A stretch of 64,000 bases of DNA. Source: Oscillibacter valericigenes. GTDB lineage: Bacteria; Bacillota; Clostridia; Oscillospirales; Oscillospiraceae. Shown piece by piece: positions 42,133-61,693 of this stretch; within the stretch, counting starts at the first letter, position 1; each line of letters begins with the position of its first letter. The stretch lies in the NCBI RefSeq assembly GCF_021531435.1, contig NZ_JAFBIS010000005.1:1-64000 (forward strand), read 5' to 3'. The notes beneath the pieces were generated by a model. The model was not told the origin of the DNA, did no database searches, and saw only the letters and a program-made list of their open reading frames with translations. Position numbers and translations under genes: made by a program.

Positions 42133-43521
42133 TCAGTTCTGGATAAAGGAGTAAATGATCTGGCTGTCATCGATGATCTCCATGTCCATATCCATCGCCA
42201 GCCGCACACTGTCGCTGCCGTCGTAGCTCTTGATGGAAATTCCAACGGAGAGACCGTCCCGGATGTTATCAAGAAACGGGACTTTTGTGACAGTTGTGAT
42301 CGTTTCCCCGGGAACAAGCTGTGATAATTTCAGGTCAAGCGTTTCCCAGTAGACCAGCGTGCCGCTGGAATCAAAGATCTTGATCATAACAGGCCAATCC
42401 CAGTACAGCGGCGCGCTGCCGTCATTTTCCCAGTCCAGCTGAATGTCGATGGAATCATCGGAAAAGGAAAATGTCGTTGAGAGCCTGGATACGTAGTATT
42501 TGTATCCGATGCGGCGCAGGACTGCTTCGTAGGCGGACGCGTATTCCTCCTGATCCGGGATGTGGGGGCCGACAAATGTCAGGTGGCAGTCCTCGACCTG
42601 GCGAAGGAGAGAGGGCAGTTCCTCGTTAAACAGGCGTTCCGGGTCGATCCCGCTTGTGATCTCTCCGCCGGCCGGGGCGGTTTTCCAGAAGGAGGGGTAC
42701 GGCAAAATGTCGATCGTGCCTGCGGCGGCGTCCTGGCTGCCGCCTGTTTTTGTCCACTCCAGCCATGTGTCTGTCTGCTCCTGGTCGCCGATCACATCGT
42801 TGTAGATGCCCAGCTTGGCATCCACGGCATGGATGTAGCTCCTGCGCATAAGGAAGCGCACATTTTGGAAATGCTCCGTGTAGGCGAGAATATAGTCCCA
42901 GCAGGTTTCCGCCGAAGGCATCAGGGAATTGCCGCTGCTGTCCTGCACATGCCATTCACCCCAATGACCGAGACTGCCCAATTCGACATAGGCCGCGAAA
43001 TCATCCTGATTGAAGTAATCGGCCAGAGCGGAAACGGCCATTGCGTGCCGCGAAATAAAGAACTCATTTTCGTAGTTCGGCGAATAACCGGACCCGCTGC
43101 TCCCGGTATAGTACGTGCCGTCTCCGGTGGCCTCCAGCAGCCATTGCGGAATGTCCGCATGGCCGGCCTCGCCCGGATCGTCACAGATAAACCGGATCAC
43201 CGCGTGCTTGCCCTCTGCTTTCCACAGGGGGATATGGAAATTGGACTCCAGAAATGCGGTGTTGTACTGCCCCATCTCAGGTTCCCAGTCCGCCCAGCGC
43301 AGCTTGATGAAAACCAGATCGGTATCCGCGCATTTTTCCAGATCTTGCGCATAAGGCGCATATCCCATCAAAGGATTTGCCACAATGCCTTTATCCGGCG
43401 TAAAGCCTACCTCGTCGTTCAAATGGTAGCGTTTGAGCATGTAGAAGAGAAGCCCGATAATAGCGGCGGCCAGCAGGAGCAGGACGATGTAGTCGGCGCG
43501 GTTGCTTTTCTTTTTAGCCAT
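42133..43521 (-). CDS. membrane-anchored DUF4832-like (glycoside-hydrolase-like) protein
   Basis: The 462-residue product has a Lys/Arg tip and one membrane span (about residues 10-27), placing the rest outside the cell. The outer part begins KGIVANPLMGYAPYAQ and has VFIKLRWADWEPEMGQYN and ELGSLGHWGEWHVQ, patterns of DUF4832/DUF4874 proteins with a TIM-barrel fold like glycoside hydrolases, and a beta-sandwich C terminus. It is the last gene of the pel operon, overlapping the DUF4956 gene by eight bases. It might trim or bind the Pel polymer; acidic residues in WADWEPE and HWGEWH are candidates for catalysis. Confidence 0.8.
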   Translation of the reverse strand: MAKKKSNRADYIVLLLLAAAIIGLLFYMLKRYHLNDEVGFTPDKGIVANPLMGYAPYAQDLEKCADTDLVFIKLRWADWEPEMGQYNTAFLESNFHIPLWKAEGKHAVIRFICDDPGEAGHADIPQWLLEATGDGTYYTGSSGSGYSPNYENEFFISRHAMAVSALADYFNQDDFAAYVELGSLGHWGEWHVQDSSGNSLMPSAETCWDYILAYTEHFQNVRFLMRRSYIHAVDAKLGIYNDVIGDQEQTDTWLEWTKTGGSQDAAAGTIDILPYPSFWKTAPAGGEITSGIDPERLFNEELPSLLRQVEDCHLTFVGPHIPDQEEYASAYEAVLRRIGYKYYVSRLSTTFSFSDDSIDIQLDWENDGSAPLYWDWPVMIKIFDSSGTLVYWETLDLKLSQLVPGETITTVTKVPFLDNIRDGLSVGISIKSYDGSDSVRLAMDMDMEIIDDSQIIYSFIQN

Positions 43522-44197
43522 TATACTCTCCGTTGTACTGGATGAGGTTGACGTCCTTGACGCCTTCGATCTCATTGATCTTATCCATAAACGCTGTGCC
43601 GTGCTTGTCGTAGATCAGCTCCAGCGTCAGTTCACAGGTGGAGCCGCGCATGGTCTTGCTCTTGATTTGATAGTGGAAGCGGCTCAGGCTGCGAAGGATC
43701 TCGTCGTCCGCCGTATCGCCTTCATAATGGATCACCAGAATGTAGATGACGCCCTGCTTACGCTTGTGGTAAAAGACGTAGACGATGCCGATCATCACGA
43801 TCATGGTCAGGGCGGCCAGCACGTAAAGCCCCGCGGCCAATGTGATGCCCACGGAGATCGACCAGAACAAATACAGCAGGTCCATGGGGTCTTTGATGGC
43901 CGTGCGGTAACGGACGATGGAGAGGGCGCCGACCATACCGAGAGAGATCACGATGTTGCTGCTGATCGCAAGGGTCAGCATACATGTCAGCACCGTCATT
44001 CCAATCAGAGTGACCGCGAAGGACGCGGAATAGACGACGCCGCCGTAGTAATGGCCGTAGACCTTATAGATCACGATGCCCAACAGCACGGCCGCGGCCA
44101 TGGCGATGACCGCTGTGATGACAAAGTCCACGGTGATCCCGCCGCTGGCGGCAAAGGACTCCCACACCGTTTTCTTAAAATAATCCTTGATAGACAT
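43514..44197 (-). CDS. DUF4956 membrane protein
   Basis: The 227-residue product has four membrane spans in its first 140 residues, with the family hallmark GMVGALSIVRYRTAIKDPMDLLYLFWSI, followed by a ferredoxin-like cytoplasmic domain of about 85 residues. DUF4956 genes are commonly found next to VTC-domain and CotH genes, but their role is unknown. The ATG at 44197 has GGGAGG upstream and lies inside the end of the VTC gene (23-base overlap). Confidence 0.88.
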   Translation of the reverse strand: MSIKDYFKKTVWESFAASGGITVDFVITAVIAMAAAVLLGIVIYKVYGHYYGGVVYSASFAVTLIGMTVLTCMLTLAISSNIVISLGMVGALSIVRYRTAIKDPMDLLYLFWSISVGITLAAGLYVLAALTMIVMIGIVYVFYHKRKQGVIYILVIHYEGDTADDEILRSLSRFHYQIKSKTMRGSTCELTLELIYDKHGTAFMDKINEIEGVKDVNLIQYNGEYNG

Positions 44198-44948
44198 TTC
44201 TCTGTTTCCTCCCGCTGATATATGTTTTGGAGATCCCTGCCGTGGGATCGGTAAGGTGATGGGCCGCCTCATAGCATTGCGTGTACTTTGAAAACGCGGA
44301 GAATTCCTGACCATCCAGAGGCAGGAGCGTTTTGACCATCTGCGGCAGAAACGAGGTATACTTGACTTCCAGGACCAGCTTGCCCGGCTCTATGGCCGGA
44401 AGCGTGGGAAGCTCCGCGTCAAAAATGTCAAAGGAGCCTATGGCGGCCCGGACATTTTTATCGAAGGTGATGCGGACTGTGCCGGCATCCAGGGTCAGCG
44501 GCGTTCGCTCATAGTCTGCGATCACCTTGGGGCGGAGGAGATGTGCCATGTATTCATAATAGAATTCTCCGCAGAGGTTTTCTTCTCTTTCCAGAAGAAA
44601 TTTGCAGTCTCCGTCAAGGATCTTCTGAAATTCCCCTCTGGTCAGCAAGGCGGATTCTTTGTAGATATAGCTGCCGTTTTTTGTTTTCCGTTCAAGGCTG
44701 ATGCGGCTGTCGCTGCAATTATAGACCCTGATGCGCCATTTCTGACGGAAGTTCACGCCCGTGATCTTTTCCCGGTAGGCGGAGTCGTTCATATCGTCAA
44801 AGTAAAGGCTTCGGATCATATATTCTCCGCCTGCCGCGTTCCGGTCAAGGGACAGGAACGGACTCAGACGCCGCTGAAGCAGTTCCGCTTCCGGATAGGA
44901 AACCAGGTATTTCCACTCATGGCGGAAAACTTTCTTTTTTTCGGACAT
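44175..44948 (-). CDS. VTC-domain protein (polyphosphate-polymerase-like)
   Basis: The 257-residue protein is a single VTC tunnel domain. The basic and acidic residues lining the tunnel are seen in HEWKYLVS, WRIRVYN, SLERKTKN, LRPKVIADYERTPL, RITFDKN and LEVKYTSFLP. In yeast Vtc4 the domain makes polyphosphate from ATP; in bacteria it occurs with CotH and DUF4956 genes. No membrane span is present, so it is cytosolic. Its start ATG lies two bases from the stop of the second CotH gene. Polyphosphate synthesis or another nucleotide-dependent reaction is plausible but unproven here. Confidence 0.88.
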   Translation of the reverse strand: MSEKKKVFRHEWKYLVSYPEAELLQRRLSPFLSLDRNAAGGEYMIRSLYFDDMNDSAYREKITGVNFRQKWRIRVYNCSDSRISLERKTKNGSYIYKESALLTRGEFQKILDGDCKFLLEREENLCGEFYYEYMAHLLRPKVIADYERTPLTLDAGTVRITFDKNVRAAIGSFDIFDAELPTLPAIEPGKLVLEVKYTSFLPQMVKTLLPLDGQEFSAFSKYTQCYEAAHHLTDPTAGISKTYISGRKQRNVYQGLF

Positions 44949-44949
44949 C

Positions 44950-46752
44950 TCATTCACCTTCGTTGAAGTAGGAGGCATGGACAGAGCCGTCAGGCAGCAC
45001 ATAGAAGCACAGGACGCCATGGAGCGTTGTTTTGACTTCAGTGGAATAGGTCTCGTAAGCGATCTGGCTCCTGCCGTCCGCGGTTTGCGCTGTGACGGAA
45101 AGGAAATACTGCCCGGCGGGAAGCTGGCCGATCACCCATTCGGTGGACTTGCGGCCGGAAGCAGTGAGAAGCGGCGTCTCAAAGTCCCAGGAATCATCCA
45201 GCGCGATGTCATATGCGACATCCATGCCGCGGGAGGCGTCTTCCCAGGAAAGCCGGAGACTGCCGTCCGCCTGTTTTTCCGGTTCAAGGATGTGGAAGGG
45301 GGCGGGTAGCTCAAGGCTGTCATAGTAGGCATAATAGTTTCTTGTGATCTGCTCATAGATACCCGCCGCGAGGGTATCATACTGCGGCGGGGTCACCCGG
45401 GCGAAGGTCTTGTCTGGCAGGCTGTAAACATATTGCTTTGCCAGCGAGGTGAGTCTGGACACGGCGGAGGATACGGCGGACTCGGTCAGATATGTTTTGT
45501 ACAGGTCATCCACCGCCGTGCTGAGACTGGCGATGCAGGCGTCATCTCCCAGCATTCTGGAAAACAGGACGTTGTCATAGAAGCTGAAAATTCCGGTGTC
45601 CCAGGCCGCCGACTGGCCGGGATTCCGCATTTCCTCGTAATCGTCCCGGAGCGCACCGTCGTTGTCCCAGGAGATGAAATAAAACTTGTCGGAACCCGTG
45701 GGACTGTACAGGTAGTAGTTTTCCGTCGAGGCGTTCTTGTTTCCGACCAGGATGTTGAAGGCAAGCCAGTTGAACAGGTTGTCCCTGTCAAAATAGGTAT
45801 TGATGACATCCTGAATGGGGACATTGGGGTCGTTGACGGCATTGAGCATTGCCAGCAGTTGGGAATGGTCGTTACCGCCCTTGATCTCCAGAAGCGATTC
45901 AAACGCGTCCTCCCGGAACTGGGAAGAAGTGGAAAGAGTGATGACATCTTCGTGGCGGGCAAAATCAAAATCGTCGGCTTTGTAGATCGCACCGTCATCA
46001 TCCAGATGGCGGTTTTTAAAGTAGGTCTTGTTGATGGGCTCCACCATCGTGTACAGGCCATAGTCCTCATAAAGCGTGTCCACGCCGGAAGTCGTGTCCT
46101 TCACATAGAGGTGAACGAGCCGCGTCCTTGTGCTCAGCAGGGACGGTATACCCTGCATCAGTTCGTAGCACAGCTTGTTTGTGATGCGCAGCGGATCGGT
46201 AAAGCTCTTGGAGAGGACCACGGTTTTCAGTCCGTCCAGCGAGCCCTTGCCGTCCTTGATGGAGACGCGGTAGCTCTTTTGCTGGCGCGCGGAGGCGTTT
46301 TCCCCCTGCAGCCGGACAACGGCGTTGGCGGTCAGCTCCCCGTATCCGAAAGAGCCTTCGGAAGGCGCGGTTTCGTCGCCCAGCTGAAACACAGCCTCAC
46401 ATTGATACGGGGCTGGTCCCTGTTCGTTCAAAGGGATGGAGTTGATCTCCGTCCAGGTGTGGTCGGTGCCGTCGGCTTCGTTGCCCAGCCCCACAGCCAG
46501 GTATACGACTGTGACGCCGTCATCCGATTCCCCATAGAGGTCACCGGCGTCGGAGACGGAGATTTTGGAAGTATCCGTTTTCTCATAAGTCTCCTCCGGC
46601 GACAGGATACCGCTGAAGGCGCCCTCTGACTGAAAACCACACCCGGCCAGCAGCAGGCAGAGCAGGACCGGCAGCGCCTTCCAGACGGAACGCGCCGGCG
46701 GGTGCTGTGTCTTTTTCCGCTTTTGTCCGGCGGTATATCTTATATTTCTCAT
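44950..46752 (-). CDS. CotH-like lipoprotein (second copy)
   Basis: The 600-residue protein has a long Arg/Lys-rich tip, a hydrophobic stretch and lipobox LLAGC (Cys38), then a CotH kinase-like domain (about residues 60-470) with RVSIKDGKG, LVHLYVKDTTSG, YGLYTMVEPIN and YFISWDNDGALR, and a C-terminal fibronectin-like beta domain (about 495-570). CotH proteins are atypical protein kinases of spore coats and cell surfaces. Its first codon overlaps the stop of the first copy. The two copies share domain layout and many motifs, so they arose by duplication. Confidence 0.88.
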   Translation of the reverse strand: MRNIRYTAGQKRKKTQHPPARSVWKALPVLLCLLLAGCGFQSEGAFSGILSPEETYEKTDTSKISVSDAGDLYGESDDGVTVVYLAVGLGNEADGTDHTWTEINSIPLNEQGPAPYQCEAVFQLGDETAPSEGSFGYGELTANAVVRLQGENASARQQKSYRVSIKDGKGSLDGLKTVVLSKSFTDPLRITNKLCYELMQGIPSLLSTRTRLVHLYVKDTTSGVDTLYEDYGLYTMVEPINKTYFKNRHLDDDGAIYKADDFDFARHEDVITLSTSSQFREDAFESLLEIKGGNDHSQLLAMLNAVNDPNVPIQDVINTYFDRDNLFNWLAFNILVGNKNASTENYYLYSPTGSDKFYFISWDNDGALRDDYEEMRNPGQSAAWDTGIFSFYDNVLFSRMLGDDACIASLSTAVDDLYKTYLTESAVSSAVSRLTSLAKQYVYSLPDKTFARVTPPQYDTLAAGIYEQITRNYYAYYDSLELPAPFHILEPEKQADGSLRLSWEDASRGMDVAYDIALDDSWDFETPLLTASGRKSTEWVIGQLPAGQYFLSVTAQTADGRSQIAYETYSTEVKTTLHGVLCFYVLPDGSVHASYFNEGE

Positions 46753-48509
46753 TACACATCCTCCCCGATGTAGACGGATATGGTCCCATCCGGCTCCACC
46801 GTAAAGACATAGCAGCCATAGATTTTTCCGATGTCTGGAATACTGTAAAAGTCAAAGCAGTCGATCGTGTGGCCGGACTCATTGGTTGCCGTGACCTTCA
46901 GATAATAGGTCCCCGGCTCCAGAAGACCCACCTTGGCATAGGGGATGGTCAGGCCGGAGTCCTGGGACAGGATATTTCGGAACCAGTAGTCGGTGGCCAG
47001 CTGATAGGCGTAGGTCACAGACTCGCCCCGGATGTCGTAGGAAGTGCCCCAGGAGAAAACGATGCTGTCCTCATGGTGTTCCGGGACATTGACAAAGAAC
47101 GGCCACGGACAAGCCAAACTGTCCAGGTAATATTCGTAATTGATCTGTATTTCCGACGAGAGCATACTGACGTATCTGTCGTATTCCGTCGGGGTCAGCT
47201 GGCTGATGTTGTTGCTGAATGCATTGTTGAAAGCGTCGTATTTCACGACCTTGCTGTAAGCGGCGGCACGTTCCGCGATTTTGTCGGGGTTCAGCGCATG
47301 CTCCATCAGGTCGTGGATGGCGTCATCAAGCTGCTGACGGTAGCACGCTTCCTTCATCATCCGCTGAAAGAGCACCAGTAAGACATATTGGGTCAGTCCG
47401 CGTTCCCAGGAAAGGCCTTCGAGATATCCGACTTTTTCATAGTAATTCCTTCGGAATGATGCGTCCATATCCCAGGAGATGAAGTACCACTTTTGGGAAT
47501 TCTGCGGACTATAAATATATGCGTTTCTCGCACCGGAGTCGTAGTTGCCAATCAGAATTTGAAAAGCCATCCAATAGCACAGGTTTTCCGCGTCAAAGTT
47601 TTCCTCTATGATCTCCGTAATGGGGATGCTGTAATTCTGCAGCCTGGTCAGCATGTCCCGCAGATCAGAATGGTCATCGCTGCCCTTGATCTCCAGATAG
47701 GTTTCAAAGGCATCCTCGTCGTAGTCGTCTCCGACGGCCATGATCTCGTCGTAATCATACCATTCAAACATATTGATCTTGTACAGCTTGCCACGGTCAT
47801 CCAGACCGTGGTTTTTCAGATAGGTCCGGTTGATCTGCTCCACCATGGTGTAAAGACCGTAATCCACATAGTTCCCGGAGCTGCCCGCCGTTGTGTCCTT
47901 CACATAGAGATGGACGAACTGGGTCCGGGCGCTGAGAAGCTGAGGAATATCCGTCAGCAGGTCGTAGCACATCTTATTCAGAAAGCGGTAGGGATCGCTG
48001 ACATGCTTGTTCAACGCCAACGTCCGCTGGCCGTTGTATTCCTCCTTGCCGGCCTTGATACGGATCTTGTAGTTTTTGGAATCGTACCGGGAGGATGTCT
48101 GGCCCCGGACCTGCACGGTCACATTCGGCACAGTCTCTCCGTAGCCGTAGCTGCCCTCGCCGAGGCCATTTCCATCATCAATTTGGAGGATGCCCTCTAC
48201 CTTGTAGCGGTCGATACCCAGGTCATCATAGTAATAAGTGGAGTGGGCGTTGACCTCCGACCAGGTGTGGTCGGAGCTGTCAGCCGCGTTTCCCGTGGAT
48301 ACGGTGAGATACATACTGATGACGGAGGTGGGGTCATGCCCCTCGTACAGCGCGTCATTGTCGTGGATGTTTCCCTCCGACGGCGTCTCTTTGGGAACTG
48401 CCTGGACCGCGGAGACCTCCGGCGCTTCCGGCGCGGCGGAGTTTGCGGCGCAGCCCGACAGTATCAGGGCAGCCAGCAAAAGGGCGGTTATCTTTTTCAG
48501 TCGCTTCAT
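46752..48509 (-). CDS. CotH-like lipoprotein (first copy)
   Basis: The 585-residue protein has a signal peptide with lipobox LSGC (Cys20), a CotH kinase-like domain with KNYKIRIKAG (Lys-rich nucleotide contact), FVHLYVKDTTAG, YGLYTMVEQIN and WYFISWDMDASFRRN (Asp pair likely binding metal), and a C-terminal beta domain. It is lipid-anchored outside the membrane, where ATP is scarce, so substrate and phosphate donor are open questions. The start overlaps the pelG stop as ATGA, so expression is coupled to Pel secretion. Confidence 0.88.
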   Translation of the reverse strand: MKRLKKITALLLAALILSGCAANSAAPEAPEVSAVQAVPKETPSEGNIHDNDALYEGHDPTSVISMYLTVSTGNAADSSDHTWSEVNAHSTYYYDDLGIDRYKVEGILQIDDGNGLGEGSYGYGETVPNVTVQVRGQTSSRYDSKNYKIRIKAGKEEYNGQRTLALNKHVSDPYRFLNKMCYDLLTDIPQLLSARTQFVHLYVKDTTAGSSGNYVDYGLYTMVEQINRTYLKNHGLDDRGKLYKINMFEWYDYDEIMAVGDDYDEDAFETYLEIKGSDDHSDLRDMLTRLQNYSIPITEIIEENFDAENLCYWMAFQILIGNYDSGARNAYIYSPQNSQKWYFISWDMDASFRRNYYEKVGYLEGLSWERGLTQYVLLVLFQRMMKEACYRQQLDDAIHDLMEHALNPDKIAERAAAYSKVVKYDAFNNAFSNNISQLTPTEYDRYVSMLSSEIQINYEYYLDSLACPWPFFVNVPEHHEDSIVFSWGTSYDIRGESVTYAYQLATDYWFRNILSQDSGLTIPYAKVGLLEPGTYYLKVTATNESGHTIDCFDFYSIPDIGKIYGCYVFTVEPDGTISVYIGEDV

Positions 48510-50029
48510 GGGACGATCCCCTTATCTTCCGCAAATTGCTGCACTCTTTCCTGAAGGCGCCTCTGCCGCTCCGCTTCCTTGCGTTCCTGGCGCTGGTCCA
48601 GCTTCACGGCAATGAAAACAAGGGGCCCTTTCTCTTTGCGCGGGAGGATGCTTTGCTTTGCCAGCAGATAGTAAGGCAGTTTTTTCGTGCGGTGCCCCAG
48701 GCCGATGACAGATACGACATAGAACACGATGGCTCCGGCGAAAAAGCCGACGCCGTAATAATTCCAGCTTCCATATAGGATCTGCCAGATGGTGGCGGCG
48801 GTGGAGATCACGCCGAAGAGGGACGCTCCGATCACGGCGGAGGTATAATCCTCGAAGTACAGCAGGATCAGCATCATGGAATTTGCGATGGCATAAGTTC
48901 CGTAGCCTATGCAAAGGAAACGGAAGATATCAGAGGAAAGCGCGGAGAAGCCCAGCGGCAGCGCCTCCAGCACCGGCGGGGCAATGACGATAAAAAGGAT
49001 CGTCGTAAAGAGCTGCTTGTGTCCCGCGTAGCCAAGCTCCTGCCGGAGAACGGCCAGCATCTCATCCTCCGCCTGTTTGATGTCTTTGATGGAACCACGG
49101 TCATTGAAAAGACCGTAATAGTTCCGGTACTTGGGATAAAACCGGACTTCCACCGATGTGATAAAGTTGATCGTCGTGATCAAAAGGCTGAAAAAGGCAA
49201 AGAGGGCGGGGACATCGTACTGGGGCGCACCGTAAAAAAGACCCTCCACCTGTACTTTCAGCGGCCCGAAATACATGATGATCATATGGGAGAACAGGCC
49301 GATGTTCAGCATGCCGCCGGTTATGACCAGAGGCCGGTACCTGTCCATCCACGCAAGAAAGGAGAAATTGCTGCCCTTTTGCGTGGGAAAGTCATCCAGC
49401 AATACGTTCAGATACCTGCACATCAGCAGGCCGTATGCGGCGATGATCGCAAGCATGAAGACCTCGATGCTGACAAAGCCCAGGAGGATCGCGATCAGGA
49501 CCAGAAGAAAGCCCACCATCAGCGAAATGCAGAAGGACAGCACGATGGCTTTATAGTCCTTGACAGCGGTCAGGTAGATCATTTCGTTCCAGACAACGAT
49601 CAGCACCAGCGAATACCACAGGCAGAGGAGCTGGTAAAGCAGGGAGACCCCGGAAAAGTGCAGAAAAATTCCGTAAAATACGGTGCAGATCGCCAGCATG
49701 ATAGCGGTGGAGCCATAGAAGGAAGGAATGACCTTTTCGTTTTTCTCCTCGTAGAGCATATCGGATACGAAGCGGGTCACGCCCATGTTGAACCAGCTTG
49801 TGATGGTCAGGGAGGCCAGCAGGCTGTATGTGAGCATGCAGTTCAGCAGCTCTCTGGAATGGCTGTCCATGCCGCCGATCCGGGCGGCAAAGGAGACGCT
49901 GCCCAGAAGGGCAATGCCCAGGAGCATGGGCCCTGTTGAGATGATCCCCGCATAGCCGTACGCCCGGCAGAGGTTGAAAATACCTTTTTTGTCAAATAGT
50001 TTTCTCAGACTGAATCCGATTCCTGCCAT
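48506..50029 (-). CDS. pelG: PelG, Pel exopolysaccharide membrane transporter
   Basis: The 507-residue protein has about twelve membrane spans and begins MAGIGFSLRKLFDKKGIF, the typical start of PelG, a member of the polysaccharide flippase superfamily. With PelD, PelE and PelF it forms the inner-membrane synthase complex that moves the partly acetylated GalNAc-rich polymer across the membrane. It overlaps the end of pelF by 25 bases and ends in a charged cytoplasmic tail of about 60 residues (RKEKG...QERKEAERQRR). Confidence 0.95.
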   Translation of the reverse strand: MAGIGFSLRKLFDKKGIFNLCRAYGYAGIISTGPMLLGIALLGSVSFAARIGGMDSHSRELLNCMLTYSLLASLTITSWFNMGVTRFVSDMLYEEKNEKVIPSFYGSTAIMLAICTVFYGIFLHFSGVSLLYQLLCLWYSLVLIVVWNEMIYLTAVKDYKAIVLSFCISLMVGFLLVLIAILLGFVSIEVFMLAIIAAYGLLMCRYLNVLLDDFPTQKGSNFSFLAWMDRYRPLVITGGMLNIGLFSHMIIMYFGPLKVQVEGLFYGAPQYDVPALFAFFSLLITTINFITSVEVRFYPKYRNYYGLFNDRGSIKDIKQAEDEMLAVLRQELGYAGHKQLFTTILFIVIAPPVLEALPLGFSALSSDIFRFLCIGYGTYAIANSMMLILLYFEDYTSAVIGASLFGVISTAATIWQILYGSWNYYGVGFFAGAIVFYVVSVIGLGHRTKKLPYYLLAKQSILPRKEKGPLVFIAVKLDQRQERKEAERQRRLQERVQQFAEDKGIVP

Positions 50030-51432
50030 CTCTTAAAAACCTCGTCATATACTTCCAAATAGCGGCGGATCATATCCTCATGGAGAAAATACTTCTCTAC
50101 CCGCTTTCTGCCGATGATACCCATTTTCCGCCGTTCCACGGGATGCTGGCACATCCGCGCCATGGCGTCCGACATGGCCTGCACGTGGATGGGAGGCACA
50201 CAGTACCCCGCGGAGCCGAGGTCGTCATCTTCGGCGACCTTGTTGATCAATTCCTTGCAGCAGCCTACGTCTGTGGTGATGACGGGGCAGCCGGCGGCAA
50301 AGCTCTCCAGGACAGAGAGCGGCATTCCCTCTGAAATAGAGGAAAGCATGGTGAAATCGAACTTTCCCAGCCACTCGGTCACGTTGACCGTGCCCAGAAA
50401 GGTGATGTCCGGGACCTGGAGCTGCGCGATCAGATCATAGCATTCCTGGGCGTATTCCTTGTCGTCCTCCGGGCCGGCGATATAGAGCCGGGCGTTTGGA
50501 ACTCTGGCCTTCAGGTCAGCAAACGCGTAAATCATGGTTTTCACATCTTTGATCGGCGCGATGCGCAGCACCGCACCAATATCCACATATCCGTTATCCG
50601 GTTTGGGGGGAATCTTACAAAACCGCTCGTAGTGGATACCGTTTCCGATGTAGGTGCATTTATCGGGGTCGCAGCCCATGTCGATCTGCGTGTGCATGGC
50701 GCCGCTGAAAAGACTGGTGATCATGGACGCTTTTTCATAGGCACCGTCTGACAGCATATAGAAAAACCGGACCCAAAACTTTTTGAAAGCCGGATTGACC
50801 CATTTGGCGCGGATAATTTCCTCCTCCCGCTCACGGGTGTAAATGCCGTGCTCGGTGATGAGATACGGCACGTGATAGGTGTAGCTTCCCAGCCGGGCGA
50901 GGATCCCGCTGTATCCGGTGGCAATGGCGTGGTAAACATCGGCCTTAGGGATCTCGGAGGATAAAAGATGGAGCACCGGCAGGAACATGGAACGGATCGT
51001 GTGGAAAAGGTCGGAGAAGGCTGTGTAAGGATACTCCGTTTCGCAAAGATGCATCAGAATGTCCAGAAAAGTCTCGCTTTGCAGGAAAGAGACCGGCGCG
51101 ATGCGTTTTTGCGCGTACATTTCGAACAGGACTTCCCAATGCGGATTTTTGCAGTTGATCAAATCATAGAGGACCTGGGTCTCTTCGGGAGTGAAATTGT
51201 ATTTTTGGGGAGCGTTGACCAGCTTCAGGGCGTCGCCGAGGAAGATCTCTTTTACTTCCACCACATTGTCGGGCAGCGTATACTTGAACTGCCCCTGGCT
51301 GTCAGAGGACGCGCCGATGGCCCATACAACGAATTCGTGCTGGGGCATGGCCTGGATGTATTGATGGATCCAGGAGGACACACCGCCGGTCACATAGGGG
51401 TAGCACCCCTCCAGTATTACGCAGATTCTCAT
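50005..51432 (-). CDS. pelF: PelF glycosyltransferase (GT4 family)
   Basis: The 475-residue enzyme is a GT-B fold glycosyltransferase that uses UDP-GalNAc/UDP-GlcNAc for Pel polymerisation. Diagnostic parts are the start MRICVILEGCYPYVTGGVSSWIH, TEHGIYTREREEEI, GAVLRIAPIKDVKTMI, and the nucleotide-binding ExFSxxE-like SSISEGMPLSVLESF. The ATG has AAAGGATC upstream. The gene lies between the deacetylase and pelG genes, as in Bacillus pel operons. Confidence 0.96.
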   Translation of the reverse strand: MRICVILEGCYPYVTGGVSSWIHQYIQAMPQHEFVVWAIGASSDSQGQFKYTLPDNVVEVKEIFLGDALKLVNAPQKYNFTPEETQVLYDLINCKNPHWEVLFEMYAQKRIAPVSFLQSETFLDILMHLCETEYPYTAFSDLFHTIRSMFLPVLHLLSSEIPKADVYHAIATGYSGILARLGSYTYHVPYLITEHGIYTREREEEIIRAKWVNPAFKKFWVRFFYMLSDGAYEKASMITSLFSGAMHTQIDMGCDPDKCTYIGNGIHYERFCKIPPKPDNGYVDIGAVLRIAPIKDVKTMIYAFADLKARVPNARLYIAGPEDDKEYAQECYDLIAQLQVPDITFLGTVNVTEWLGKFDFTMLSSISEGMPLSVLESFAAGCPVITTDVGCCKELINKVAEDDDLGSAGYCVPPIHVQAMSDAMARMCQHPVERRKMGIIGRKRVEKYFLHEDMIRRYLEVYDEVFKRWQESDSV

Positions 51433-51453
51433 GGTACGATCCTTTACCTGCCT

Positions 51454-53313
51454 TTAAGACAACTGAATATCGACCTCATCTGAAGTCGCGCGGATCAGAT
51501 AGAGCGTGCCGTCAAGCTGTGTGAGCTCGCCGCCGGCAACGGATGCGATACCGCGTCCGTCGTTGATCCGCAGCATGAACCACGCCTCGTCATAGAAATT
51601 TGCCAGTTCCAGATGGATGCTGTTTTCGGTCCTGGTCTGGACCATATCGACATAGTCGTATCGCTGGACGGCGGCGGCGATCTCCGAGCCGGTCATGGAG
51701 CGGATGGACGGAACGGACGAATACAGCCAGTCCACATAGTCGGACAGGTTGGAGAACATGTTCGCCCAGCCCATCTCAGCGCCGCGGTCCTCATCCAGGA
51801 CGTCGTCGGGGTGCTGGAAGTGGGAACTCACCAGATGGAAATTCAGTTCCGAAAGAGCCACGAGGCGTGTATAGTCGTCCAGAATATAGCCTGCGATCAC
51901 GCGGGGGGTACTGATGATGCCGTTATCCTCCACCTGGTACTCCTGGTAATAGGCCAGCTCGCCCGGAAGATAGACGGAGGCGATGGCCTTGATGTCGGGG
52001 AATTCAGAGGCCAGCATTCCAATCCCGTCTCCTGAGATGATGTTGGACGGCGGCACATACACCTGGAAGGTGCGGTCCGGGTACAGGCTTGAGCAGAAGC
52101 CCTTCAGCTCCTTGACCGAATTCAGCATAGCCTGGTAGCTGGGCCATTGGCGGTAGCTGTCAAAAAGCCCCATATAGTCGAAGTTTTCCAAAACGAGAGG
52201 CATGTGGTTGAAGCCGTGGAAGCCGATCTCGCCTCCCGCGTCCAGAAGCATGTTGCCAAAGTACTGATAGCGTTCCGTATCCGTGTTTCTCTTAAACGTA
52301 CCGGACACCTGATCCGAATACTCCTCAATGACCATGCCGGTATATTTGATGCCGTATTTTTCGGCCAGGTTATAGATGTCCGTCCACCATACGGACGTAT
52401 AGAAATCCTTGATGCTGAGGTGATAATCCCGCTCAATATATTCGGCATAGCCGTTGGGGACGGGAGAGGGGAAGTCGTCGATGTAAAAGGCGGAGGCGTT
52501 GATCACGGGATAGACGCACGCGGAATCCAGCAGGCTGTACGCGGCACAGTGAATGCCGCGGTAGCCTTTTTCCAGAAAACCGAGATTGTCGACAACGACG
52601 GTTCCGAGCTCTGCGTTCCGGCGCCAGATAATGGGGACAGGGTATTCTCCCGATGACTGTGCAAACACCTCACAGTCATCCTCCAGATAGACGCTCATGG
52701 AGGAGTCGTAAGCGTCGGTGACCACAAAATCACGGGATGCGCCGCCAAGCATGAAGTCCTTTGAAAAATGGAGGCTTTCAACCGTTGTATAGCTGCTGCC
52801 GCAGTCCCGGATACCGAGTATATCGAACAAACTGCAAAAGCTGCCGCTGAGTTCCGGCGGATATAGGATCATCAGATTTCCGCCGGCCTTGACCCAGGTC
52901 TTGATGCTGCCGAGCAGGTCCCCCAGATACTGGTAGTGGGTCACGGAAAGGACCAGATAACCATAGCTGCCCAGAGAGTTCTCCTCAACATCCCCGCACT
53001 CCAGCGTATCGAAAGGGACCTTCATCTGGGAGAGGATCGCGGACATTTCCTCCAAGCCCACGGTGCCCATCTCATCGTCTTCATAGATCAACAGGCAGGC
53101 GGCAGCCTTCACGGGATGCACGGTCTCCTGCTTTCCGACAGACAGCAGTTCCAGACTGGGGTCCTGGGACGTATATGTGACGTTTTTGGCCACTGCGATC
53201 AACACGAGCATCAGCAGGCACATTACGAGAGCGGTTGGCAGCATATTGAAAAAAGTGCCGCCGGACCGGGCCTCGCCGGGTGTGAAATTGTCTTTTTTTC
53301 GCCTCATAGCCAT
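51454..53313 (-). CDS. pelA: PelA-type polysaccharide deacetylase (DUF2194-like)
   Basis: The 619-residue protein has one membrane span (about residues 23-43), an outer regulatory-like domain (about 65-260) and a polysaccharide deacetylase domain. The metal/catalytic residues are Asp279-Asp280 (FYIDDFPSP), His366 and His370 (GFHGFNHMP), and a later His in SSHFQHPDD. This corresponds to the deacetylase half of P. aeruginosa PelA, which makes the polymer cationic; the glycoside hydrolase half of PelA is absent. In Bacillus, PelA is likewise deacetylase-only. Confidence 0.9.
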   Translation of the reverse strand: MAMRRKKDNFTPGEARSGGTFFNMLPTALVMCLLMLVLIAVAKNVTYTSQDPSLELLSVGKQETVHPVKAAACLLIYEDDEMGTVGLEEMSAILSQMKVPFDTLECGDVEENSLGSYGYLVLSVTHYQYLGDLLGSIKTWVKAGGNLMILYPPELSGSFCSLFDILGIRDCGSSYTTVESLHFSKDFMLGGASRDFVVTDAYDSSMSVYLEDDCEVFAQSSGEYPVPIIWRRNAELGTVVVDNLGFLEKGYRGIHCAAYSLLDSACVYPVINASAFYIDDFPSPVPNGYAEYIERDYHLSIKDFYTSVWWTDIYNLAEKYGIKYTGMVIEEYSDQVSGTFKRNTDTERYQYFGNMLLDAGGEIGFHGFNHMPLVLENFDYMGLFDSYRQWPSYQAMLNSVKELKGFCSSLYPDRTFQVYVPPSNIISGDGIGMLASEFPDIKAIASVYLPGELAYYQEYQVEDNGIISTPRVIAGYILDDYTRLVALSELNFHLVSSHFQHPDDVLDEDRGAEMGWANMFSNLSDYVDWLYSSVPSIRSMTGSEIAAAVQRYDYVDMVQTRTENSIHLELANFYDEAWFMLRINDGRGIASVAGGELTQLDGTLYLIRATSDEVDIQLS

Positions 53314-53339
53314 GGCAGTTGTACCTTTTCAGACAAGTT

Positions 53340-54353
53340 TTAAGAACGCCAGAATTCAATTTCCCCACGCCCATCAGAGGATAGATAGACGCTCCTCTGG
53401 TCGATCAGCTTGATGACATCCGTCACGCCTTCCCGGTTCTTTCGGATCGCGTGATATTTCAGAAGATAGAGATAGCCCTGCTCGTTTTCCGGCCGGAAGG
53501 CGATCATCTTTTCCGCATCGGTCCGCAGATCCTCCAGATTTTGAAGGAGCATATCCGCGTCTGCTTTTTTGATCCACAGGGAAAGGCTGTCCTCGTTTTT
53601 CGCGAGGCGCTTTTTCAATACATCCACATATTTGCGGAGCTGGGCATCCCGCCGGCTGCCCTCCAGCAGGCCGCTGGACAGATACTGCTCCAAAAGATTC
53701 TGATACTTTCGGATCAGGACTTCGTCATCCGGGTCGTCCATCAGCTCTTTGCTGAGGGCCTGGAACTTCAGATCGAACTCCTTCTGGATCTCCACAAGTG
53801 CCGTGACCGCGTAGTGGACGACTTCGGGGTCATCATTGGATCTGGCTTCGGAAAGCTGCAGAATATAGCCGCTGGGGTTGGTGTAGAGGACGTCCATGAT
53901 CAGTTCCCGCTTGGTATGGGAATCGTTGATGAGGAGCGCCTCCTGAATGGGAACGACCTTATCCTGCATATCGTCTTCGTCGATCTCGACCCGGCTGTTC
54001 AGGTCATAGAGCGTTTCTTTCATCATTACCCGCTGCGTGCCGGGATCGTTCACAACAAATGCCTCGGAAAGAGGCACGACCTCATTGGTGTTTTCGCTGT
54101 CCTCCAGGAGGATGCTGCGGCGCACATTGTCGTCGACCTGAAGGCGGGGCAGCCCCAGCTCTTTGGCCTGCCGCTCCGTTTTGCGGTAAACATGAGAACG
54201 CAGGAGCAGGCTCGCAAGTCCGAAAACAGGCACGAACAGCGCGACAAAAATATCAATATATGGGTTTTTCAGGATATTGAGGTATGCCAAAATGAAGCAG
54301 ACCAGACATACCAAAAGATGTATCATTAAAAAAATGAATAAGATCGTGTTCAT
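53340..54353 (-). CDS. pelE: PelE-like membrane/TPR protein
   Basis: The product of about 337 residues has two N-terminal membrane spans (about residues 1-50), then an acidic region with repeated VVPxxEAFVVND / VVPIQEALLIND segments and TPR-like helices in the last 150 residues. This matches PelE, the scaffold of the Pel synthase complex. The ATG at 54353 starts five bases after the pelD stop; a TTG nine bases earlier is an alternative. The repeat segments (residues about 85 and 130) are a feature I do not know from other PelE proteins. Confidence 0.85.
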   Translation of the reverse strand: MNTILFIFLMIHLLVCLVCFILAYLNILKNPYIDIFVALFVPVFGLASLLLRSHVYRKTERQAKELGLPRLQVDDNVRRSILLEDSENTNEVVPLSEAFVVNDPGTQRVMMKETLYDLNSRVEIDEDDMQDKVVPIQEALLINDSHTKRELIMDVLYTNPSGYILQLSEARSNDDPEVVHYAVTALVEIQKEFDLKFQALSKELMDDPDDEVLIRKYQNLLEQYLSSGLLEGSRRDAQLRKYVDVLKKRLAKNEDSLSLWIKKADADMLLQNLEDLRTDAEKMIAFRPENEQGYLYLLKYHAIRKNREGVTDVIKLIDQRSVYLSSDGRGEIEFWRS

Positions 54354-54358
54354 ATCCC

Positions 54359-56713
54359 TCAATTACCGCTAATGATCTCATATTTGAGCCCTTTTTTGTC
54401 AAGCCGCTCACCGACGATGCTGATCGCTTTCCGGTTCGTCTGCGTCAGGACCAGGAACAGGGAGCCATCATCATCCGCACCGACGATGTCGTTGTTCCGC
54501 ACCAGGCCTTTCAGGGAAGAGGAGATGTACTCCTTGTCTTTGGAATCGAACCGGATCAGCGCGTAGCTGGACAGGCCGGCCTCCGCCAGATTCTTCTGAG
54601 CATTCAGGATTTCTGTAAAGTAAGACGGGATGACGATCGGGGTGCCGGGATAATATTTCTCCTGCTCGATGGCCTGCTGATACTCCAGGGCGCGAATGAA
54701 GGAGAGCTTGATCAGGCTGCAGAGAATGCTGAACAGATTCATGTAATACAGGCTCATCTGTTCGGGGGTGGCATGATAGACAAAGATCAGCAAACTGACT
54801 GTATCCTTTTCGCAGATGCCGTAGGCATACATCGGCAGGTCGGGGAGCAGGTCGGTATTTTTCCAGGTGTTTCCCGCAAGGACCGTATCATATACGGGAC
54901 GAACGGACGCGATCTCAAGAGATTTTGGCAGGTCTGTCAGAATATCTCCAGAACTTGCGGCCAGACGGCCGTATTTCTGCCAGCTGTCAACAGTGTAAAT
55001 GGCAATGGAGTGATTCTTTAAGATCCCCTCCATGGTCTGGATGCTGTTCATGAAAATTTCCTGGGGGAGGACGCTGTCCAGCTTTCTGACAGCCTGGAAA
55101 ATAACGCCGAAGGAGTCCTTGTATCCCAGGATCTGCCGCTTATATTCGCTTTTGTTCTCCACCGCGCCGTGATAGACGTCGTTCAGGAACAAGTATTTGT
55201 CCCGCAGAAGGTCGTTTTCCTTTTTCAAAAACTCGTTTTTCTGCCGGTGTACCGTGCTGATGTAGCCGGTAATGGAGCCTGTGATCAGATAGATCACGAA
55301 CGGCAGCCAGTTTTCGATGTTGTAAAAGAGCATGGTGCCGTTGACGCCGATGCTTCTGTATCCGAAAAACAGGGCGATGCCCGCCAGGATACCTGCCAGG
55401 ATGCCTGTCATCGTTCCGTAGGTGGTGCCCATAATGAGGACATAGAACAGGCGGATGTCAACATATTTGAAATAAACGGAGGACGCCGTTTTGCGCACCA
55501 GAAACTCAGCGACCAGGAAAAATACGATCAACTCAATGTATCCGACGGCATTTGTCAGGATCTTGTCACGGATCTTCTGCACAAGCGCTTTTGCCCAGGA
55601 ATTCTTTTGGGCGTTTTTCTTATAGGCAAAAAACGCGTCCGCAAAGGTGCTCAGCACATTGTCCATGGGGATAAAGCCGTATTTCTTCTTCAGTTCAATG
55701 CTGTAACTCTGAACGGAGATGAAATTCACCTTATCCTCATACTCAATGACGGTATCCGGGTTGATCTTCAAAATCTCGTTCTCCAGATCCCACCAGGTAT
55801 AATGGTAGCCGCTGGCAACGCTGTATGTAGCGGTGCTGTCGGAACTTTCCTCACTGATGTCCAGGAGCAGTTCCATGAGATCGGAAGCGGAGAGAAAATC
55901 AATTTTGTTCTCGGGGCGGTACGGGAATACCATCTTTTCCCCATGGAGCATATTGGAGAAGATCTGGCCGAGAAAATTGGAATCGTTCAGCTCCGAGGCG
56001 ATGTAAGGCGTCCGCAGGATGATCGTTTTGATGCCGTGGCTCTTTGTGCAGTAGCGAACAAAATTTTCCAGCTGCGCAACGGCGAAGGCCTCTCCGGAGG
56101 CGTAAGCCCGGCCCACGACCTGCCCCATGATGTCATACTTGGGCTGAAAGTTGAGGCTTGCGATGGAGGTGACCACGATGAGCTTGGAGACTACGTTTTT
56201 GACACAGGCGTCAACGATGTTATCCAGAATTTTCATCTCATCGTGCAGGCCGTCCTGACCGTCGGCGTATCCGCTGATATACCAGACCGCGTCGATCTCA
56301 AACGCGTCAAAAAGCTGATGGAATTTTTCCTCGGTGGGAATGGTATCGTAGTAATGCACCCTTCGGCTGGAACGGCCCGGCGCACAGCCTTTCCCGGCGA
56401 TCACAAGGTTATAGGTATCCGCGGCCTTTTGGATGGCTTCCTCGGAAAGCAGGGAAATATTGCCGCAGATCATGGCGCAGGAAACCTGGATCTTGTTTGC
56501 CGCCTCCTCGCGGGCCACGGCTTCGGCATAGGGGATCGCGTCTTCGGCATAGATGCTGTCTTCCAGCTGGAAAGGATCGGCAGCAGGCGCCGGACGGATC
56601 ACGAAACGCTCCTGGGAATCGCCCCTTGGTTCCGATGCTGCCGCGGCGGAATCGGCCATATCGCTTTTGTTTTCAGAGAATGTGTCCTTCTCTGTTAAGA
56701 TCTCGTCTGCCAC
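54359..56713 (-). CDS. pelD: PelD with N-terminal epimerase-like domain
   Basis: The 784-residue protein has an NAD-dependent epimerase-like domain (about residues 75-335), four membrane spans (about 395-490), a GAF domain (about 520-655) and a degenerate GGDEF domain at the C terminus. RNND at 739-742 is an RxxD site in the position used by PelD to bind c-di-GMP, so this is the likely receptor that turns on Pel polymerisation. P. aeruginosa PelD lacks the epimerase domain. The start is GTG with CGGAG upstream. The epimerase part has lost the clear Tyr-x3-Lys pair, so it may be structural. Confidence 0.9.
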   Translation of the reverse strand: MADEILTEKDTFSENKSDMADSAAAASEPRGDSQERFVIRPAPAADPFQLEDSIYAEDAIPYAEAVAREEAANKIQVSCAMICGNISLLSEEAIQKAADTYNLVIAGKGCAPGRSSRRVHYYDTIPTEEKFHQLFDAFEIDAVWYISGYADGQDGLHDEMKILDNIVDACVKNVVSKLIVVTSIASLNFQPKYDIMGQVVGRAYASGEAFAVAQLENFVRYCTKSHGIKTIILRTPYIASELNDSNFLGQIFSNMLHGEKMVFPYRPENKIDFLSASDLMELLLDISEESSDSTATYSVASGYHYTWWDLENEILKINPDTVIEYEDKVNFISVQSYSIELKKKYGFIPMDNVLSTFADAFFAYKKNAQKNSWAKALVQKIRDKILTNAVGYIELIVFFLVAEFLVRKTASSVYFKYVDIRLFYVLIMGTTYGTMTGILAGILAGIALFFGYRSIGVNGTMLFYNIENWLPFVIYLITGSITGYISTVHRQKNEFLKKENDLLRDKYLFLNDVYHGAVENKSEYKRQILGYKDSFGVIFQAVRKLDSVLPQEIFMNSIQTMEGILKNHSIAIYTVDSWQKYGRLAASSGDILTDLPKSLEIASVRPVYDTVLAGNTWKNTDLLPDLPMYAYGICEKDTVSLLIFVYHATPEQMSLYYMNLFSILCSLIKLSFIRALEYQQAIEQEKYYPGTPIVIPSYFTEILNAQKNLAEAGLSSYALIRFDSKDKEYISSSLKGLVRNNDIVGADDDGSLFLVLTQTNRKAISIVGERLDKKGLKYEIISGN

Positions 56714-56725
56714 AATATCACTCCG

Positions 56726-57925
56726 TTAAATTACATTGGACTCCAGAATACGCTCTGCAATGGGCAGGAATTTGTCCAGCAGCTCCGGGTCGAACTGACG
56801 GCCCCTTCCGGACTGGAGCTCCTGCAAAATATCTTTTGCCATCATTTTGTTTCGGTACACGCGGGAGGAATTCATGGCGTCAAAAGCGTCCGTGATGCCG
56901 ATGATCCGCGCCTCAAGGGGGATCTGGGAGCCTTTCAGACCATAAGGGTATCCGGTCCCGTCATACCGCTCATGGTGGCTGATCGCGCCGATGGAGGCAT
57001 TGGGGAGCAGGGTGAGATCCTTTAGGATCTCTCCGCCGATCACGGTGTGCTGCTTGATGGCCTCATATTCTTCGTCGGTCAGGGATGAATGCTTGTTCAG
57101 AATGGAATCGCTGACGCCGATTTTCCCGATGTCGTGGAGCAGGGCGATGTTGTATAGCCGCTCCAGCCTGCGGGAGTCCCAGCCCAGTTCCGTTGCCAGC
57201 ATGACGGAGTATTCCGCGACGCGGGAGGAGTGCCGCTTGGTATAAGTATCTCTGGCGTCCACGGCATTGCTGATGGAGAGGATCGTCTGTGTGGTCATGG
57301 CCATCAGCTTGTCATGCTCCGCGTTGACCGCCTTTTCCAGCGTCTGCGCGTTTTGACTTTTAACCAGCAGCTGTTTGTGCTGGAAGTAGCTGTATGCGAA
57401 GAACGCGGCGTATACAATTGCATAGAGAATCGGGTAAAATATCCGCATTTCCGCCGGATAACCGGAAGGGACCCTGTCAAACAGGGGAGAATAGAACAGA
57501 ACGATGAAATAGAGGACAAGAAGGCCGCTGATCATGGAGCCGTATTTGATCCCGCACAGACTGATGGTGACGGTAGGAATGAACAGGATCAGCATCATGG
57601 ACAGGATATGGCTGGAGGCCCAAATGGTGGAGCATACGGCGATCCCAACTAAAATAACGCAGAATATGATGGACGCGGTCCCCTGCCTGAACAGCCGCTT
57701 GCCAAAGAACGCGCCGGCGGCGCAGAGAAGGGAAAGAGCCAGAAGGAGGATGCCGTCGATGTCCCGGACTTTCCAGAAGCTGTATGCACTGAGCAGGAAA
57801 AAGAAACACGACAGGATCAGACAGCCGACAGCTCTTGCCCTGGATAATGCCCCGTTGATCCGGCTCTTCGGCGGTTTTGTGTTGATCGTCCTCAAAATGG
57901 CCAGAAGCTTAAATTTCATATCCAT
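56726..57925 (-). CDS. HD-GYP domain protein (c-di-GMP phosphodiesterase-like)
   Basis: The 399-residue protein has about six membrane spans (residues 30-190) and a cytoplasmic HD-GYP domain with LLHDIGKIGVSDSILNK and HHERYDGTGYP, the metal-binding and GYP motifs. HD-GYP enzymes degrade c-di-GMP. It is the first gene after the c-di-GMP riboswitch and 12 bases before pelD, so it forms a feedback unit with the pel genes. The ATG at 57925 has GGGAGAA upstream. Confidence 0.93.
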   Translation of the reverse strand: MDMKFKLLAILRTINTKPPKSRINGALSRARAVGCLILSCFFFLLSAYSFWKVRDIDGILLLALSLLCAAGAFFGKRLFRQGTASIIFCVILVGIAVCSTIWASSHILSMMLILFIPTVTISLCGIKYGSMISGLLVLYFIVLFYSPLFDRVPSGYPAEMRIFYPILYAIVYAAFFAYSYFQHKQLLVKSQNAQTLEKAVNAEHDKLMAMTTQTILSISNAVDARDTYTKRHSSRVAEYSVMLATELGWDSRRLERLYNIALLHDIGKIGVSDSILNKHSSLTDEEYEAIKQHTVIGGEILKDLTLLPNASIGAISHHERYDGTGYPYGLKGSQIPLEARIIGITDAFDAMNSSRVYRNKMMAKDILQELQSGRGRQFDPELLDKFLPIAERILESNVI

Positions 57926-57947: not shown

Positions 57948-57988
57948 AAAAAAAGCCGCCCTTGTCTGATGCATACAGACAATGCGGC
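57948..57988 (-). terminator. riboswitch-controlled terminator
   Basis: In the RNA GCCGC-ATTGTCTG pairs with CAGACAAG-GGCGGC around TATGCAT, followed by seven U residues. Its 5' arm (GCCGC) overlaps the 3' end of the aptamer. Confidence 0.88.
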
Positions 57989-58055: not shown

Positions 58056-58067
58056 AAATTCTAGCTG

Positions 58068-61684: not shown

Positions 61685-61693
61685 GGGTGCGCC

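Follow-up and report, generated by a model that had tools for sequence, protein, structure and literature searches.

The 64,000-nucleotide stretch analysed here (the window: Oscillibacter valericigenes, NCBI RefSeq assembly GCF_021531435.1, contig NZ_JAFBIS010000005.1, positions 1 to 64,000 of the forward strand) carries on its minus strand, from position 57925 to 42133, an operon of 11 genes whose largest intergenic gap, counted between the ends of open reading frames (ORFs), is 26 nt. The genes are, in order, HD-GYP, pelD, pelE, pelADA, pelF, pelG, cotH1, cotH2, VTC, DUF4956 and DUF4832, and they are preceded by a cyclic di-GMP (c-di-GMP) riboswitch. The gene content marks the operon as one for Pel exopolysaccharide, of the Gram-positive, clostridial kind already published, and its product is predicted to be the Pel polymer of N-acetylgalactosamine and galactosamine (GalNAc/GalN).

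The first gene (56726..57925) encodes an HD-GYP c-di-GMP phosphodiesterase with a hydrophobic, membrane-type N-terminal part (Pfam HD_5, 7.9e-37). It is followed by pelD-E-ADA-F-G, in this order and on one strand. PelD (54359..56713) has an N-terminal domain resembling short-chain dehydrogenases/reductases and epimerases (Pfam Epimerase, 1.6e-5, residues 125-297) and, towards its C-terminus, the sequence RNND at the RxxD site. PelE (53340..54362), for which a Pfam search gave no match, was recognized by its position, two N-terminal hydrophobic stretches and a weak match to the Streptococcus intermedius gene in the corresponding position (32% over 205 residues, 6e-32). The polysaccharide deacetylase PelADA (51454..53313) matches Pfam DUF2194 at 4.4e-151 and PDB entry 9zau at E 1.7e-59; the latter, which the table describes just as a putative membrane protein, we take to be the structure of Bacillus cereus PelADA. 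PelF, a GT4 glycosyltransferase (50005..51432; NCBIfam NF038011, 3.3e-106), and the exporter PelG (48506..50029; Pfam PF16933, 1.1e-123) complete the core.

Contiguous with the 3' side of this core lie the accessory genes. CotH1 (46752..48509), which adjoins PelG, and CotH2 (44950..46752) are kinase-fold lipoproteins by sequence, and the two Pfam CotH matches in the operon score 1.3e-58 and 6.3e-55. They are followed by a VTC-domain polyphosphate polymerase (44175..44948; Pfam VTC, 5.1e-39), a DUF4956 protein with membrane helices (43514..44197; Pfam, 5.2e-11) and a DUF4832 protein with an N-terminal membrane anchor (42133..43521; Pfam, 1.2e-13). For these last three genes the starts of the longest ORFs (45020, 44314 and 43575) were replaced by revised starts at 44948, 44197 and 43521, respectively.

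The junctions between the genes are tight. Gaps separate HD-GYP from pelD (12 nt), pelE from pelADA (26 nt), pelADA from pelF (21 nt) and cotH2 from VTC (1 nt), and overlaps were found for pelD-pelE (4 nt, with a TTG start of pelE; an ATG start gives a gap of 5 nt), pelF-pelG (25 nt), pelG-cotH1 (4 nt, ATGA), cotH1-cotH2 (1 nt), VTC-DUF4956 (23 nt) and DUF4956-DUF4832 (8 nt). Six of the ten junctions thus overlap, or five with the alternative start of pelE. The sequence-only reading of this DNA had described pelDEAFG followed by two CotH genes, VTC, DUF4956 and DUF4832, with tight, overlapping junctions, and the Pfam and NCBIfam matches together with the ORF ends bear this out; two parts it had left unnamed, namely the HD-GYP gene inside the span it described and the riboswitch outside it. 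It had also named a separate promoter between pelG and the first CotH gene as evidence that would count against a single unit, for which the 4-nt overlap leaves no room; the nearest upstream minus-strand promoter-like site to cotH1 lies within pelG and matches at 9 of 12 positions, sites of this kind being as frequent as by chance. Across the region, promoter-like sites numbered seven against a shuffle mean of 11.1, i.e. not above chance, and terminator-like sites 28 against 14.3, nearly all of them intragenic or on the opposite strand. A terminator-like hairpin of 15 pairs with a weak T-rich tail, found by the consensus scan, lies 3' of the last gene (41991..42024, minus strand).

At the front of the operon, a c-di-GMP-I (GEMM-I) riboswitch aptamer was found at 57983..58056 on the minus strand (Rfam RF01051, 59.8 bits, E 3.5e-9). 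It covers the full covariance model (positions 1-87), well above the gathering cut-off of 35 bits, and is the sole RF01051 match found in the 2.8-Mb genome, for which 150 of 201 first-look candidates were scored. Eleven nucleotides upstream of it is the top-scoring minus-strand promoter-like site, TTGCAA-17-TATAAT with a TG before the -10 element (extended -10; 58068..58096), identified by consensus match. Downstream, a Rho-independent terminator (57955..57988, minus strand; coordinates hand-counted from the fold) has its 5' arm, GCCGC, inside the 3' end of the aptamer and is followed by seven U residues; its fold has a predicted energy of -19.2 kcal/mol (z -4.34). The position of C92, a ligand contact in the Vc2 riboswitch according to the part of PMC4744006 available, falls by our own reading of the Rfam alignment within the 3' segment that competes for the terminator. 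Because the 3' strand of the aptamer carries this contact, ligand binding and termination should exclude each other, and the layout of the terminator therefore predicts a transcriptional ON switch.

The presence of such switches in front of other pel operons was examined in 85 genomes (our own, 20 genomes, a further 50 under stricter filters, and 14). Aptamers fronting pel were found in nine of them, each above the Rfam cut-off within the locus: the window, L071, L072, L093/L034, L096, L099, L103, L114 and L040 (loci are numbered with the prefix L). In all nine, the best stem preceding a run of at least five T residues, sought from 30 nt before the aptamer end onwards, has its 5' arm inside the 3' end of the aptamer, and the sequences of the stems differ. 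The order of genes behind the switch varies: HD-GYP then pelD in the window and L071, pelD directly in L072, L093, L096 and L099, a DivIVA-like gene then HD-GYP in L103 and L114, and a small ORF then pelD in L040. The search covered the genomes of 70 of the 80 named loci described below; L093 and L134 were covered by the further 14-genome search, and in eight named loci scanned as loci alone, most of them short, no RF01051 match was found. Aptamer positions were assigned to loci by their coordinates, and other coordinate overlaps were discarded on reading the sequence; L133, L143, L146 and L148 have aptamer-like matches elsewhere in the locus and were excluded from the count. One of these, L143:16641-16723 (minus strand), lies directly before a separate minus-strand DUF4832 hydrolase gene.

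A second point of control is indicated by PelD. In B. cereus, Pel is under c-di-GMP control via PelD. The RxxD site was kept in 76 of 82 aligned PelD rows; it was altered in one (S. intermedius, KKTT) and gapped in five (L036, L037, L116, L123 and L127), where loss or a split ORF is possible. The C-terminal end of the window protein reads by eye as a degenerate GGDEF-like domain, with no GGDEF match in Pfam; in the epimerase-like domain, the usual Y-x-x-x-K looks altered by eye, and a phmmer search of PelD against PDB gave no match. An association of this epimerase-like domain with the accessory cassette has been published. The HD-GYP protein has both of its motifs intact (HDIGKIG at 264 and HHERYDGTGYP at 317), its closest PDB chain being 4mcw, and c-di-GMP could be supplied by the products of 11 GGDEF matches in the same genome, all above the cut-off. 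An RxxD site in PelD combined with an HD-GYP enzyme as first gene implies, on these motifs, a feedback by which Pel production would limit itself. Three features, namely the riboswitch, the RxxD site of PelD and the HD-GYP gene, thus back the control by c-di-GMP that the sequence-only reading had proposed.

The association of the accessory genes with Pel was examined in 92 Pel loci besides the window, 78 of them named loci and 14 from a sample of the class; counts and trees exclude L093 and L134, which are duplicates. In the class, 15 of the 391 genomes, our own among them, have a PelG match above the cut-off; no such match came from the 2 further members of the family or the 15 further members of the order that were sampled. 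Contig ends cut 14 of the 92 loci (3 of the 14 from the class sample), leaving 78 that could be assessed. Among these, CotH, VTC and DUF4956 occurred together in 69, VTC and DUF4956 alone in one, and none of the three in eight; in the class sample alone, the triple was found in 7 of 11 assessable loci and was missing from four. The figure of 69 of 78 is biased to relatives, because the 80 named loci were taken from at least 560 as those most similar in PelG to the window. The earlier view that the add-on genes belong with Pel, and its expectation that they would not be absent from most related loci, agree with both sets of counts. As a signal from gene neighbourhood, this near all-or-none linkage says that CotH, VTC and DUF4956 act together. 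In four loci counted as cut (L100, L106, L107 and L141), DUF4832 directly follows PelG. Two DUF2194 (PelADA-like) genes in a tandem arrangement were also seen between pelE and pelF in L072, L076, L080, L081, L083 and L104.

DUF4956 is common in the class (196 of 391 genomes at E 0.001), and in all 26 sampled non-Pel loci, hand-picked mostly as the strongest DUF4956 matches plus genomes of the same order, it adjoins VTC. A concatenated VTC-DUF4956 tree was built from 68 Pel rows and the 22 non-Pel pairs that passed a length filter (L045, L048, L058 and L064 were left out); this and the other trees were of a quick kind, with long branches flagged and no bootstrap. A long branch of 1.85, with a support value (SH-like approximate likelihood ratio test, SH-aLRT) of 100, separates the Pel-linked pairs from 20 of the 22 non-Pel pairs; the remaining two, L069 and L070, stand on the same side of it as the Pel-linked pairs. 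Linkage to Pel required two changes on this tree, compared to 19.8 after shuffling. Moreover, VTC-DUF4956 distances track PelG distances over 68 loci (Mantel r 0.86; maximum of 2000 permutations, 0.30), as expected of genes inherited together, either vertically or as a block. In L070 (8943-10344, plus strand), whose genome has no PelG match, a Pel-type pair has a PAS-domain gene and a LysR regulator as neighbours and is perhaps a remnant.

The neighbours of the non-Pel pairs were also scanned; position and strand decided which 31 of the 98 ORFs listed were taken. Nineteen matched Cthe_2159 and three matched CotH (L051, L066 and L069), and the consensus start of these Cthe_2159-type and CotH-type proteins, MKK...C, suggests that they are secreted. 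Pairs beside Cthe_2159 proteins were seen in Clostridia in L047, L048, L049, L054, L060, L064, L067, L068 and others, suggesting a wider theme in which a polyphosphate enzyme would be paired with a secreted surface protein. The idea that CotH stands beside VTC-DUF4956 exclusively in Pel loci was rejected, as the three CotH-bearing non-Pel loci, L051 among them in the same order, show the contrary; in the part of PMC12345266 available, no such arrangement outside Pel had been found.

The most direct connection between the accessory genes and the Pel exporter was observed in 15 named loci (L072, L076, L078, L081, L087, L095, L104, L135, L136, L138, L139, L140, L145, L146 and L150), in which one ORF of 1033-1101 codons encodes both PelG and CotH; the window has separate genes for them. 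Seven of the hosts are Lachnospiraceae or similar, among them Claveliimonas bilis, whose genome is complete; the other eight are Paenibacillus or Brevibacillus. On a PelG tree with 15 fused and 62 separate loci, five changes are needed, at least four of them forced by starred branches, compared to 13.9 in shuffles. A lipobox of the form L/V-x-G/A-C is present at the joint in all 15 fusions, and its cysteine (Cys514 of the alignment) is the sole invariant column between 453 and 575. In a predicted model of the Claveliimonas fusion, a helix (489-512) comes right before this cysteine and is followed by a disordered linker, the confidence there being low. The fused protein may thus be cut by signal peptidase II, or CotH may remain tethered; either way, the predicted arrangement places CotH at the exporter. 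The fusion is possibly a membrane polyprotein processed by this peptidase. In the window, both CotH proteins have a lipobox behind a hydrophobic stretch (LSGC in CotH1, LAGC in CotH2), as expected of lipoproteins.

The proteins of the cassette were compared with characterized relatives. CotH1 has the CotH fold with both active-site Asp residues, and a kinase activity is predicted for it; CotH2 has Asn at the first position (aligned with the catalytic D228 of B. subtilis) and Asp at the second, so that its active-site pair is not intact. D228 of B. subtilis CotH and D251, which we take to be its second active-site Asp, correspond by hand count to residues 224 and 247 of the B. cereus chain, with a spacing of 23 in both. 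According to the part of PMC7821199 available, a D228Q change inactivates B. subtilis CotH. In all 73 loci with a readable CotH site, at least one copy has both Asp residues, and in the 23 loci with two readable copies, the first Asp is present in 22 PelG-proximal and 14 distal copies; the nearest relative, Oscillibacter sp. L071, retains it in CotH2.

In VTC, all 90 rows share the residues K-x-R-x-R, E-x-K-x-K, Y-x-R, R and E-x-K without variation, so that basic tunnel and metal residues are conserved. Their match to the tunnel of Vtc4 is presumptive, the pairwise alignment being weak (E 0.039). For Vtc4, R264, R266 and E426 are named in the part of PMC9911596 available. The predicted fold of DUF4956 (a monomer model, with a predicted template modelling score, pTM, of 0.59) consists of membrane helices and a C-terminal alpha-beta domain, and in a fold search ~80 residues matched ACT domains as well as the C-terminal domain of MgtC; for the membrane part, the search gave no clue to a channel. 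A phmmer search of the DUF4832 protein against PDB gave nothing convincing. The protein is 33% identical to the product of the S. intermedius gene at the SIR_1591 position, reported as an active glycoside hydrolase in the part of PMC12345266 available, and this likeness makes it a probable Pel hydrolase.

The sequence-only reading had presented the union of Pel with CotH, VTC and DUF4956 as a distinct new system, and this we reject, since it is already published. Even from the portions available of the two papers concerned, PMC7112168 (Whitfield et al. 2020) describes, for streptococci and clostridia, pelDEADAFG genes to which cotH, a poly-phosphate polymerase gene, DUF4956 and DUF4832 are contiguous, together with an epimerase-like domain in PelD, and PMC12345266 (2025) describes the deletion of all four accessory genes in S. 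intermedius. The operon of the window shares with the former the order of the core, the contiguous downstream genes and the PelD domain, and differs from it in the c-di-GMP-I riboswitch, the leading HD-GYP gene and a second CotH; the word riboswitch is absent from the main text of PMC7112168. With the S. intermedius cluster SIR_1591-1594 it shares, as far as PMC12345266 was available, the genes and their order. Identities to the locus of strain ATCC 27335 (L120) are 38% for CotH1, 56% for VTC, 53% for DUF4956, 33% for DUF4832 and 52% for PelF; L120 differs in the KKTT of its PelD, a single CotH and a genome with no RF01051 match. B. cereus pelDEADAFG has the same core biosynthetic genes but divergent galE and pelAH neighbours, and the part of PMC7112168 available mentions no cotH cassette there.

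The yeast VTC polymerase/translocase, which couples polyphosphate synthesis to membrane translocation (PMC9911596, as available in part), shares with the window protein the Pfam VTC domain and catalytic-type residues that line up weakly with Vtc4. However, the window VTC has no SPX domain by Pfam, and Vtc1 was not among the best 50 fold matches of DUF4956. The clostridial VTC-DUF4956-Cthe_2159 loci have the same two-gene core but lie for the most part on the distant side of the tree, and a carbohydrate-binding protein mostly replaces CotH in them. In NELoc-2 of Clostridium perfringens, genes for CotH and VTC lie close to a family 2 glycosyltransferase (PMC2879425, seen in part), and the gene called 'tubulin' there may be DUF4956. 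The terms CotH, riboswitch, polyphosphate and lipoprotein do not occur in PMC13254593. No description of riboswitch-led or PelG-CotH-fused pel operons was found among the part of the literature hits listed, and as far as our searches reach, neither the front end made up of riboswitch and HD-GYP gene nor the fusion of PelG to CotH, with its conserved lipobox, appears to have been described.

We consider it probable that the window holds a published-type Pel operon with a c-di-GMP gate at two levels and a cassette acting at the site of export. Binding of c-di-GMP would hold the 3' end of the aptamer, the terminator forming otherwise, and a ~16-kb mRNA would be made just at high c-di-GMP. PelD would then bind c-di-GMP at RxxD and set PelF to polymerise and PelG to export the polymer, which PelADA would deacetylate and the DUF4832 hydrolase would trim, and the HD-GYP phosphodiesterase, as first product, would lower c-di-GMP and make the burst self-limiting. 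CotH1, CotH2, VTC and DUF4956 would work at the same export site as PelG. As to what CotH and VTC do chemically, we infer that VTC would make cytosolic polyphosphate, that DUF4956 would control it or provide its passage, and that lipid-anchored CotH beside PelG would phosphorylate either the polymer as it emerges or proteins of the surface.

Several observations weigh against parts of this picture. The strongest, directed at its phosphate part, comes from S. intermedius, where the VTC mutant still aggregated and no change was reported; the hydrolase mutant likewise aggregated, with no reported phenotype (both in the part of PMC12345266 available). The front end is not general, given that 76 of the 85 genomes (50 of the 85 searched under stricter filters) have no c-di-GMP-I riboswitch before pel and that an HD-GYP gene stands beside pel in 6 of 80 named loci. 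Eight assessable Pel loci have no cassette gene at all, and in CotH2 of the window one catalytic Asp is gone. A lipid anchor is not a universal feature, since a lipobox-like motif was found in just 48 of 81 separate CotH ORFs (first 110 residues; these are longest ORFs, some of which start too early).

One rival explanation, plausible but less likely than not, is that CotH is a protein kinase which tunes Pel output by acting on Pel proteins (PelADA, PelD or others), VTC-DUF4956 being a separate intracellular control unit for phosphate or polyphosphate and the polymer receiving no phosphate. Control through protein phosphorylation was proposed in PMC7112168, and deletion of CotH or DUF4956 alters the amount of Pel in S. 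intermedius (less after loss of CotH, more after loss of DUF4956, with less aggregation in both; PMC12345266, each source available in part); DUF4956, moreover, matches regulatory ACT domains, besides the MgtC C-terminal domain. However, the signal and lipobox of the window CotH proteins, and the helix and lipobox behind PelG in the fusions, would put the kinase domain outside the cell, and the MKK...C starts next to non-Pel pairs point the same way. A scenario that we regard as rather unlikely has VTC-DUF4956 exporting polyphosphate, a polyanion that would cross-link the cationic, partly deacetylated Pel, with CotH anchoring or handling it. The invariant catalytic-type residues of VTC, the coupled synthesis and translocation in yeast and the lower aggregation despite more Pel in the DUF4956 mutant would suit it; the VTC deletion, for which no effect on aggregation was reported in S. 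intermedius, and a DUF4956 model that is a monomer, argue against it.

An extended form of the favoured reading, unlikely as a whole, makes PelG-CotH a coupled export-phosphorylation machine: a single polypeptide in several lineages, its kinase would be freed, as a lipoprotein, at the mouth of the exporter by a cut at the internal lipobox, VTC-DUF4956 would pass polyphosphate across the membrane as donor, and Pel, phosphorylated or loaded with polyphosphate, would here be pulsed by the riboswitch/HD-GYP loop. Quite unlikely, too, is an OFF riboswitch, with pel transcribed at low c-di-GMP and PelD serving as a second, opposite check. Cd1, a class I switch upstream of C. difficile flagellar genes, is indeed OFF (PMC4744006, available in part), but in every one of the nine switches found before pel, terminator and aptamer 3' strand are in direct competition, and OFF logic would need an antiterminator, for which no systematic search was made. 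That the add-on genes are merely co-transcribed passengers is highly improbable: operon linkage alone is no proof of joint function, the triple is missing from eight assessable loci and, of the four genes deleted in the published work, two gave no effect that was reported, but the near all-or-none linkage, the clade apart from most non-Pel pairs, the congruence of the trees, the repeated PelG-CotH fusion and the CotH and DUF4956 deletion phenotypes all disfavour it.

These results make the role of the accessory genes, left open by the 2020 and 2025 papers, testable. A prediction of when pel is transcribed follows from the c-di-GMP-I riboswitch; the fusions lead one to expect CotH to act at PelG, and the invariant lipobox that the joint of the two holds a cleavage site or a lipid anchor. 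In a non-streptococcal setting with c-di-GMP control intact, deletion of VTC could show a phenotype not reported for S. intermedius.

Other genes of the window were also noted. A DivIVA-like coiled-coil gene (40982-41959, plus strand; its product starts MKKALFGY) is convergent to the end of the pel operon, and DivIVA-like genes starting MKKSFWGY come first after the riboswitch in L103:851-1783 and L114:285-1190; on the strength of these three loci, the gene is possibly a further Pel component. Some 5.5 kb past the 3' end of the operon is a transposase-like gene (35102-36613, minus strand), named by eye from its translation. Upstream of the operon, genes for a cyclase, a carboxymuconolactone decarboxylase and an FMN/FAD oxidoreductase stand in a row (60222-63643, plus strand), a possible cluster for aromatic or enoate degradation. 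An ORF of 1689 codons (16263-21332, plus strand), with no Pfam match at 0.01, reads like a large phage or mobile-element protein.

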